Source: Chitinophagaceae bacterium LGM1
Lineage (GTDB): Bacteria > Bacteroidota > Bacteroidia > Chitinophagales > Chitinophagaceae
Assembly (NCBI GenBank): GCA_018604165.1
Contig: CP075895.1
Span: 1-64,000 of the forward strand
Direction of reading: 5' to 3'
DNA: 64,000 bases
Below are positions 2,043 to 3,882 of this stretch, piece after piece; the first letter of the stretch is position 1; each line of letters starts with the position of its first letter. Under the pieces are notes generated by a model that worked only from the letters and a program-made list of their open reading frames with translations, made no database searches and was not told where the DNA came from. A program made the translations under genes and the position numbers.

Positions 2043-2957
2043 TTACAAGCGTTGGTATTGCTCTATCGTCTTGAACAAATGCAAGGCGATTTCCGGCACG
2101 ATGGCATTGCCGTACATTCTGATGGATTGGTTGCACCACTTTGAAACGGTAATACCGTCCAGTCTGGCGGGAATCCCATCATCTCCCCCACAAAGCGGGG
2201 GTTGAGTCGGCCAGTCCTGCCAACGATGTCCTGTATCGTAGAACCGAGGTCGTTGCCCCGCCAGTTCTTCGTCTTGCGTTTGTAGTTGCTGTCGCTGGCA
2301 ATGGGTGTCGGTAACAGCTTGTGGTGATTGTGCAGCACATAGGCTGTGAGCTTGCTGCTGTTGTCGGGTGTTTCGTCCTTGCGGAGTTTGGCTGCAAAGC
2401 TTGGCGCGTTGCCATCGAATGCGGTCGGGGTCGGCAGAAGCTTTCTTGTTCCCTGCGGTGGCAGGTTCAGATAGTCTTCCGACAATCCATACCCTGTACC
2501 TTTGGTGCGGGGCGTTGACACCTGAAGCTGGCAATACATACGCTGCGACTTCGTAGCCTTCAGTTTCCAAATCAGATTGCACCGTGTCGAATACCAGTCC
2601 CTCGTTCCAATTAAGCAGGCCGTAAACGTTTTCGCAAACGACCCATCGGGGTTTGATTTGTTGAATAACGCGATGCATTGCAGGCCAGAGGTAGCGGTCA
2701 TCTGCCGTGCCTGTACGCTTCCCGGCTGCACTAAAGGGCTGGCAGGGAAAGCCACCCGTGAGGATGTCAATTTTTTCTTTGTAGGGCGTGGCATCAAAAT
2801 CTCCGATGTCGTGGTAACAGGCCGCATCAGGCCAGTAATGTTGCAGGATGGTTTGGCAGAACATATCTTTTTCGCAATGAAAAATGTTCTGCCATCCCAT
2901 TTTTTCAGCAGCGAGGTCAAAGCCCCCGCCGCCTGAAAACAGGCTGCCGTGTCGCAT
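2043..2957 (-). CDS. DNA cytosine-C5 methyltransferase
   Basis: A 304-residue enzyme that would transfer a methyl group from S-adenosylmethionine to C5 of cytosine. It shows SLFSGGGGFDLA (motif I, about 5-16), GGFPCQPFS with the catalytic Cys near 72 (motif IV), ENV near 109 (motif VI), QRYRVW near 152 (motif VIII) and YGNAIVPEIA near the C-terminus (motif X). The start is the ATG preceded by AAAGGA with 8-base spacing; the frame runs upstream but that part overlaps the primase gene and has no motifs. The region between motifs VIII and IX is Q/R-rich and short for a target recognition domain. No restriction enzyme is adjacent, so it is probably an orphan that shields the element from host restriction. 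See the separate entry for the overlapping frame. Confidence 0.92.
   Translation of the reverse strand: MRHGSLFSGGGGFDLAAEKMGWQNIFHCEKDMFCQTILQHYWPDAACYHDIGDFDATPYKEKIDILTGGFPCQPFSAAGKRTGTADDRYLWPAMHRVIQQIKPRWVVCENVYGLLNWNEGLVFDTVQSDLETEGYEVAAYVLPASGVNAPHQRYRVWIVGRLSEPATAGNKKASADPDRIRWQRAKLCSQTPQGRNTRQQQQAHSLCAAQSPQAVTDTHCQRQQLQTQDEELAGQRPRFYDTGHRWQDWPTQPPLCGGDDGIPARLDGITVSKWCNQSIRMYGNAIVPEIALHLFKTIEQYQRL
2063..2920 (-). other. Overlapping +1 frame with conserved-looking protein inside the methyltransferase gene
   Basis: A second minus-strand frame, shifted +1 from the methyltransferase, is open for 286 codons. From about 2650 down to 2063 its translation looks like a real family and not noise: it has WYSTRCNLIWKLKATK, then YCQLQVSTP, two copies of LLPTP followed by A/I and D, and LNPRFVGEMMGFPPDWT. 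These resemble the C-terminal segments of phage-type cytosine methyltransferases as I remember them. The same bases encode motifs VI, VIII and X in the main frame. Either the gene is dual-coded or a frameshift joins the N-terminal domain to this alternative C-terminus. I see no ribosome binding site that clearly serves the frame on its own. Confidence 0.5.
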
Positions 2958-2973
2958 AGGTATATCCTTTCGG

Positions 2974-3882
2974 TTATTGTCTGGTATAAGAGGCGAATTG
3001 TTCATTCGGGTCTTTGTAACCACTATAACTGTCATTAGCGGTTTCAAAGCGCAGGTTTTCTGTTGTGCAGAATGATTGCAGTAATGCGGTGTATGTTTTG
3101 CCTTGTTCGTCATTGCCAAGCCATGCACGTAGATACACATAGCCATAGTTGCGGATATAGGCGGTCATATCCTGCATGCAGTCCATGCTATTCAGGATAA
3201 TACTATCTTCTTCAAATAACCTGCCGTTGCGCAAGCTAACGGCAGAGAGGTAATCATAGATGTCTTTGAATATTTGTACCCCGTCAGGTTTGGGTGTTTT
3301 GCCCCGGATAAAGCTGATGGCTCTAATGCCGATATGTGCTTTGATGGTGGAATTACGGATGGCATAGCCGCCGTCTTCATTTACAAAGCCGATAGCAATA
3401 AAGCTTTTGCCTGTCTGCTTGTTTCGGACACGCACCTGCTTTAGCTTATGCCTTGCTATGTGAAACGGGATGCCGCGTTGTTGTTCAAGGTAACGAATGA
3501 GTGTCGGGTCTGATACATGCGCTACATCCCTGATAACAAAACATGCATCCATGCTTTTGTAATCAGGCATGTCTTGTGGCAGTTCGATGGTGGTGTATGG
3601 ATAACCGACCATATTGCGCAGCCAGCGCATGGCATCCATCACGCTGTAGTTCAAACCCTCGCATTGCAGGTAGCGGCAGACAAGCGCAATCCCATTGCCT
3701 GTCTGTCCAGTCATCGGGTCAAACCATGTATTGGTAGCAGGGTTGACGACCAGATTAGATAGCTGTTCTTCGTTAAACGGGCAGGCATAAAGGTCTAAGC
3801 CGTTGCGGATGGGCTTAGGCTTAATGCCCCATACAGCAAATATTTTTTGCAGGGGTATTGTCTTGGCATAGGTTATATCCAT
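2974..3882 (-). CDS. Toprim/primase-like mobilization protein
   Basis: A 302-residue soluble protein resembling the CHC2/Toprim primase-like proteins of Bacteroidota mobile elements. The N-terminus (about 10-80) has the layout of the zinc-finger region (LYACPFNEEQ, then NTWFDPMTGQTGNGIALV) but lacks a full CHC2 cysteine set, which is common in these proteins. The C-terminal part (about 190-280) has the Toprim pattern, with IFKDIYDYLSAVSL and the hydrophobic strand before LNSMDCMQDM. It would act in priming or strand handling during element replication. It lies 16 bases upstream of the methyltransferase and about 37 bases downstream of the HTH gene, in one operon. Confidence 0.7.
   Translation of the reverse strand: MDITYAKTIPLQKIFAVWGIKPKPIRNGLDLYACPFNEEQLSNLVVNPATNTWFDPMTGQTGNGIALVCRYLQCEGLNYSVMDAMRWLRNMVGYPYTTIELPQDMPDYKSMDACFVIRDVAHVSDPTLIRYLEQQRGIPFHIARHKLKQVRVRNKQTGKSFIAIGFVNEDGGYAIRNSTIKAHIGIRAISFIRGKTPKPDGVQIFKDIYDYLSAVSLRNGRLFEEDSIILNSMDCMQDMTAYIRNYGYVYLRAWLGNDEQGKTYTALLQSFCTTENLRFETANDSYSGYKDPNEQFASYTRQ

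Follow-up and report, generated by a model that had tools for sequence, protein, structure and literature searches.

The window is a stretch of 64,000 nucleotides from Chitinophagaceae bacterium LGM1. On its minus strand, at 2957–2043, 2 reading frames overlap on the same bases (Table 1): frame 0, termed alpha, encodes a cytosine-5 DNA methyltransferase (C5-methyltransferase), and the +1 frame, termed beta, holds a nested gene. The alpha start was picked by homology; the open reading frame (ORF) listing begins at an upstream ATG (3146). Frame-0 segments that we take to be motifs I, IV, VI, VIII, and X were all found, in agreement with the original prediction. That prediction also had the +1 frame open from 2920 to 2063, with a feature at 2063–2650. 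The stop and the protein-like character of this part hold, but the frame is stop-free from at least 2998 down to the stop, position 2920 being a TTG, and, with ATG 2794–2792 as the likely start, the real gene is longer than 2063–2650 and its overlap with alpha begins before motif IV. The +1 translation contains WYSTRCNLIWKLKATK, the 2 predicted LLPTP segments (LLPTPTAFD and LLPTPIASD), and LNPRFVGEMMGFPPDWT. The two-frame observation is far above chance: 4.6 stops are expected in the 256-codon +1 stretch of the window, none of 100 shuffles with fixed frame-0 amino acids and codon usage was stop-free, and the +1 profile score is 317 bits, whereas no shuffle exceeded 128 (the window itself contributed to the 10-sequence profile).

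Table 1. Features of the alpha/beta locus in window coordinates; A5 is an alignment.
Feature	Position	Strand	Remarks
Alpha, frame-0 C5-methyltransferase	2043..2957	-	ATG 2957, stop 2043-2045, 304 codons
Alpha motif I (SLFSGGGGFDLAA)	2907..2945	-	read in frame 0
GGAG, Shine-Dalgarno-like	2801..2804	-	6 nt before beta ATG
Beta, nested +1-frame gene, proposed target-recognition subunit	2063..2794	-	ATG 2794-2792, stop 2063-2065, 243 codons
Alpha motif IV PCQ (PCQP)	2739..2747	-	catalytic Cys72; invariant in A5
Alpha motif VI ENV	2625..2633	-	E109 and N110 invariant in A5, V111 nearly so
Alpha motif VIII APHQRYR	2493..2513	-	A149, H151, R153, and R155 invariant in A5
Region C, recognition region, with both LLPTP segments	2226..2477	-	constrained as +1 (beta) sequence but not as frame 0
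Beta RLNPRFVGEMMGFPPDWT, motif IX-like	2156..2209	-	weak alignment to motif IX of ordinary enzymes (E 0.25)
Alpha motif X YGNAIVP	2094..2114	-	G283 and N284 invariant in A5

Alpha passes as a C5-methyltransferase catalytic domain, with motifs I, IV, VI, and VIII present and matches to PF00145 (1.4e-43) and phrog_363 (1e-68). The PF00145 match covers only profile positions 1–167 of 324, and the similarity to HhaI and HaeIII reaches only as far as motif VIII. No recognition region was found in the alpha chain, the PF00145 match ending at position 167 and frame 0 showing no constraint between motif VIII and WPTQ (see below), and no motif IX was seen when the frame-0 translation was inspected by eye.

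The +1 product matches phrog_1008 (“DNA methyltransferase”; 6.4e-24 for the +1 frame and 3.8e-24 for the window's beta), a family matched by all 64 beta sequences of alignment A3; judging from these matches, phrog_1008 is the beta family. Its label points to a catalytic enzyme, whereas our reading of beta shows no catalytic motif, and its listing is silent on overlap with another gene. Searches of the +1 frame against Pfam and NCBIfam gave no match up to E 1, and no PDB relative of beta was found. The only profile–profile match of beta falls on motif IX and is weak (E 0.25, probability 0.2%). The structure model of beta is poor (mean pLDDT 61.3), and no methyltransferase fold was found with it.

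The 6 scanned neighbors of the locus include genes for an ArdC-like anti-restriction protein, a helix-turn-helix protein, an integrase, and a terminase small subunit, and no restriction enzyme was recognized among them. These neighbors make a mobile element with an orphan methyltransferase likely, and the enzyme would probably protect the element from restriction. Directly upstream of alpha lies a 302-amino-acid ORF (2974–3882, minus strand) with no Pfam match up to E 0.01.

Recurrence of the overlapping gene pair

A tblastn search with the window's +1 frame matched 68 phage records and 5 plasmids, and a Fernvirus +1 ORF used as the query (E 1e-3) matched 91 phage records, including gene 58 of Escherichia phage N15 and Salmonella, Bordetella, Pseudomonas, Acinetobacter, Xanthomonas, and Gordonia phages. 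In all 8 annotated phage records that were fetched, the match lay in the +1 frame of the annotated methyltransferase. Viral contigs were then scanned with an alignment of beta sequences and with both beta and alpha of the window, yielding 170 loci, and overlaps were counted using profiles of both frames built from 10 sequences. Of 192 sequences (the window and 191 loci), 191 have beta overlapping alpha in the exact +1 relation, the single miss being the truncated locus L111. Loci L001–L111 and L202–L230 were found via the +1 frame; only L112–L191, which were chosen for their resemblance to alpha of the window, escape that bias, and for loci fetched by alpha alone the +1 relation was found in 80 of 80. 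It was also present in 33 of 33 further loci, namely 29 genome contigs fetched by beta and 4 plasmids, among them Methanomethylovorans (archaeal), Streptomyces, and Nostoc plasmids. These counts establish the constant +1 geometry, with the proviso that the loci include near-duplicates (L102 and L112 on one contig, L106 and L107, L001 and L002).

The arrangement is rare in bacterial genomes (7 of 99 relatives and 3 of 296 genomes of the phylum, with the window's own genome counted in each). Phage records matching the window's alpha number 1,539 (E 1e-5), versus the 91 matching one beta query, and most phage C5-methyltransferase records therefore showed no beta at the sensitivity used. The nearest named relatives of the window locus come from Chitinophagaceae bacterium IBVUCB1, a Bacteroidetes metagenome-assembled genome (MAG), and a Flavipsychrobacter MAG. 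One genome of the same genus (G006) carries 3 alpha/beta copies (L193, L199, and L201), with beta identities to the window of 84%, 81%, and 60%, respectively.

Both frames are already annotated as (DNA-)cytosine or DNA methyltransferase coding sequences in the Fernvirus phages Tadhana and Arcticfreeze and in Xanthomonas phage PhiXhv-28. A 48-phage study lists DNA-cytosine methyltransferases and describes gene calling in which overlaps were penalized; the passages concerned do not explain the overlap of the nested Fernvirus calls (PMC6070908).

Several loci depart from the regular layout. In L020 (279–1859), alpha residues 1–72 lie at 279–494 and residues 72–166 at 1500–1859, which suggests that an insertion of approximately 1 kb, possibly an intron or a homing element, interrupts the codons for the catalytic PCQ. 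The C-terminal part of alpha shifts frame in L224 (2814–4200; Mucilaginibacter) and L230 (2823–4200; Candidatus Bacteroides pullicola), with stops in both frames, and we read these copies as broken or as sequencing errors. In Bacteroides elements (L007, from 1982; L008, from 1994; L222; L226; and L227, from 2757), alpha contains 2 or 3 in-frame TGA codons, several of them at tryptophan positions of relatives. Beta is devoid of TGA in these elements, as is a neighboring KilAC-type ORF (L007, L008, L222, and L227), and the codons in alpha may reflect recoding, decay of alpha, or readthrough.

Conservation of the +1 frame and the switch of constraint

The conservation of the +1 frame was compared with shuffles in which synonymous codons were permuted within each gene, leaving the alpha protein and codon usage unchanged (100 per gene). 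After reduction of 159 full-length genes to 115 nonredundant ones, 8 of them among the 10 profile sequences, the real +1 score exceeded all 100 shuffles in 115 of 115 genes, with a mean of 184 bits for real genes and approximately 47 bits on average for shuffled ones. For the overlap with motifs IV–VIII, real genes exceeded all shuffles in 89 of the 91 genes that had all landmarks and lay outside the profile, and in 33 of 33 alpha-fetched genes. The full-length set has no +1 stops versus 809.7 expected in 29,786 codons, partly by construction since beta matches were defined on stop-free ORFs; the alpha-fetched genes of the motif IV–VIII test, which are the fairer test, have none versus 168.2 expected in 3,296 codons. 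Beta was found in none of 108 ordinary C5-methyltransferases, of which 28 come from the bacterial family of the window and 80 lie on viral contigs, although one of these genes has a 239-codon open +1 stretch; 2 of the 30 control loci, the window itself and L262, are of the alpha/beta type and were excluded from the 108. Beta is conserved beyond what alpha's frame would force.

The constrained frame changes along the gene. In a comparison of the window with 4 close relatives (L193, L194, L195, and L199) and the more distant L201, differences fall mainly at frame-0 third positions upstream of beta and up to motif VIII, and from motif VIII to WPTQPP mainly at frame-0 first positions, which are +1 third positions. 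In the latter segment, beta keeps 68–70 of 83 residues in the 4 close relatives versus 52–55 expected from random placement, and 47 versus 25 in L201, and alpha keeps fewer residues than expected in all 5 relatives. Between the beta start and motif VIII (region B), beta is not conserved above random in these 5 pairs (P 0.35–0.94), and constraint on its N-terminal half is visible only in deep comparisons, namely the motif IV–VIII shuffles. From WPTQ to the beta stop, alpha is better conserved than beta in the 5 relatives.

Across 36 pairs of genes, the shares of mismatches at frame-0 positions 1, 2, and 3 were.23/.10/.68 upstream of beta,.32/.16/.52 in the doubly coding part,.52/.26/.22 in the recognition region,.52/.22/.27 at the motif IX-like end, and.22/.13/.65 after beta. 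The region borders differ between the 5-relative and 36-pair comparisons; region D of the former includes motif X bases, where frame 0 is better conserved. In the recognition region (between motifs VIII and IX), position 1 exceeded position 3 in all 36 pairs, so that wobble follows the +1 frame; the pairs use each gene once but, as some come from near-identical phages, are not fully independent. Loci from the survey of 99 relatives did not enter these pairs, the same sites being taken instead from the later genome contigs. In ordinary methyltransferases, the shares in the corresponding region are.25/.19/.56, and position 1 exceeded position 3 in none of 19 pairs, formed from the 65 of 108 genes with all landmarks. 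The data thus demonstrate a switch of the constrained frame. The earlier suggestion that the +1 frame represents the C-terminal, target-recognizing part of the enzyme is supported as well. Dual coding, also put forward there, is strongly supported by phrog_1008, the 68 phage records, the conservation beyond frame 0, and the constrained frame in the recognition region; homologs of the +1 product and constraint on it are both present, contrary to the refuting condition named with that suggestion, and we regard dual coding as demonstrated.

Some pairs differ almost exclusively in one part of the gene. L157 and L166 have 1, 5, and 3 mismatches in regions A, B, and E versus 60 in region C, and L124/L173 and L135/L174 are likewise near-identical before and after the recognition region and strongly different within it. 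Such pairs look like swapped recognition modules with both frames kept open.

Probable internal initiation of beta and a proposed two-subunit enzyme

The GGAG and ATG 2794 are identical in the window and 4 same-genus relatives and absent in the fifth, more distant L201. Of 114 genes, 105 have a +1-frame ATG or GTG at a distance of 10–24 codons upstream of the catalytic PCQ, versus 58.6 ± 5.0 in shuffles, and 9 genes have neither codon in this interval. Enrichment is stronger for starts with predicted anti-Shine-Dalgarno pairing below −6 kcal/mol (74 versus 14.2 ± 3.5) and below −8 kcal/mol (45 versus 3.4 ± 1.7), which demonstrates that internal starts are enriched across the homologs. Together with the constrained N-terminal half of beta, this makes a separate internal start of translation more plausible than a frameshift near motif VIII.

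We consider it highly likely that 2 overlapping same-strand genes of the locus specify the subunits of a single cytosine-5 DNA methyltransferase, with the nested, separately initiated beta serving in recognition. Alpha would carry the cofactor-binding and catalytic motifs I–VIII plus the C-terminal motif X; translation of beta would begin separately at the internal ATG, which has a Shine-Dalgarno sequence of its own and lies shortly before the catalytic motif of alpha, and beta would supply the target-recognition region and motif IX. The 2 chains would assemble into one enzyme, in which the alpha residues between motifs VIII and X would be a spacer, mainly required to stay open. We infer that beta is made in vivo, binds alpha, and sets the DNA target. 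Counting against this two-subunit view are the weak motif IX match, the poor beta model, the Bacteroides alpha TGA codons with beta open, the lack of near-relative constraint on beta's N-terminal half, and the start missing in 9 of 114 genes and in L201.

That the +1 similarity merely reflects the conserved amino acids and the codon usage of alpha has next to no probability given the scores of the 115 real genes, the better conservation of the +1 frame in region C, and the absence of a score in the 108 ordinary enzymes, even though beta partly overlaps motifs IV–VIII, shuffles still reach approximately 47 bits, and one control gene has a long open +1 stretch; on the shuffles, the region C conservation, the 36-pair phase test, and the ordinary controls, we take it as refuted. 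The programmed frameshift or slippage that the original prediction offered as an alternative to dual coding would lead from frame 0 into +1 and yield, alternatively or obligatorily, a methyltransferase with a swapped C-terminus, maybe with a shift back for motif X. Such a there-and-back shift would join the conserved parts into one ordinary enzyme, their order in the DNA being frame 0 (I–VIII), +1 (recognition and IX), and frame 0 (X), and the window does have an A6 run after the beta start (2776–2771). However, this run is A5 in all 4 closest relatives, starts with their own Shine-Dalgarno sequences are enriched across homologs, and the +1 frame is constrained upstream of motif VIII, where it would go untranslated if the shift occurred at the border with the recognition region. 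A frameshift switch is not supported, and we rate it as improbable.

We hold it equally improbable that beta is a separate protein rather than a subunit, such as a regulator, an anti-restriction factor, or a toxin-like passenger whose gene has been overprinted on that of the methyltransferase. The alpha–beta interaction is deduced, no Pfam or PDB relative of beta was found, the motif IX match is weak, and the Bacteroides loci hold beta open despite in-frame TGA codons in alpha, all of which would suit an independent protein; yet frame 0 loses amino acid constraint, and beta gains it, exactly at the recognition region of ordinary enzymes, the conserved end of beta is located where motif IX is expected, and beta overlaps alpha in every beta-positive locus tested.

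Relation to known enzymes and implications

Two-polypeptide C5-methyltransferases are already known. M.EcoHK31I (YGGCCR) is said to have been described as one by Lee, Kam, and Shaw in 1995; its small-chain ORF is nested within the large gene in a different frame, much as beta is in the alpha gene, and both polypeptides are needed for methylation. M.EcoHK31I is part of a restriction-modification system, whereas the window locus has no restriction enzyme among the 6 neighbors scanned. According to PMC3404938, its large chain holds motifs I–VIII and X, as alpha does, and its small chain motif IX; the recognition domain is predicted in the large chain, whereas here that region is constrained in the small chain's frame, and the published placement counts against a two-subunit reading with recognition in beta. 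In M.AquI (CYCGRG), an alpha/beta C5-methyltransferase, the small chain holds the distal recognition region, motif IX, and motif X, by the same account (PMC3404938). The 2 chains and a small one with recognition and motif IX are as proposed for beta, but motif X lies in the small chain of M.AquI and in alpha here, and an overlap of genes in different frames is absent from the passage on M.AquI. Both two-polypeptide C5 enzymes and those split between motif VIII and the recognition domain function (PMC3404938 and PMC5944983). The monomeric M.HhaI and M.HaeIII, which alpha matches over motifs I–VIII, have the recognition region and motif IX in one frame, and genes of this kind are without beta (0 of 108). 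The locus is best filed as a widespread variant of the two-polypeptide C5-methyltransferases in which the recognition half is nested in another frame; the spread of the arrangement and the evidence for a recognition region in beta, with alpha's version as filler, look new.

On balance, we lean toward a deeply conserved same-strand gene pair, occurring across several bacterial phyla in phages, prophages, and plasmids and also in an archaeal plasmid, in which the recognition half lies inside the catalytic half in another frame, alpha's segment there is filler without amino acid constraint, and recognition modules are exchanged in the form of cassettes comprising both frames. Methyltransferases of the alpha/beta type in phages and prophages mostly carry the annotation of a single gene and would be cloned as such. 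Should beta be the recognition subunit, predictions of specificity based on the alpha sequence use the wrong frame, and a recoded or codon-optimized alpha would be without its specificity half. If borne out, the arrangement would represent unusually widespread and measurable dual coding in which selection clearly passes from one frame to the other, a function could be assigned to phrog_1008, and the place of the M.EcoHK31I recognition domain would deserve re-examination.
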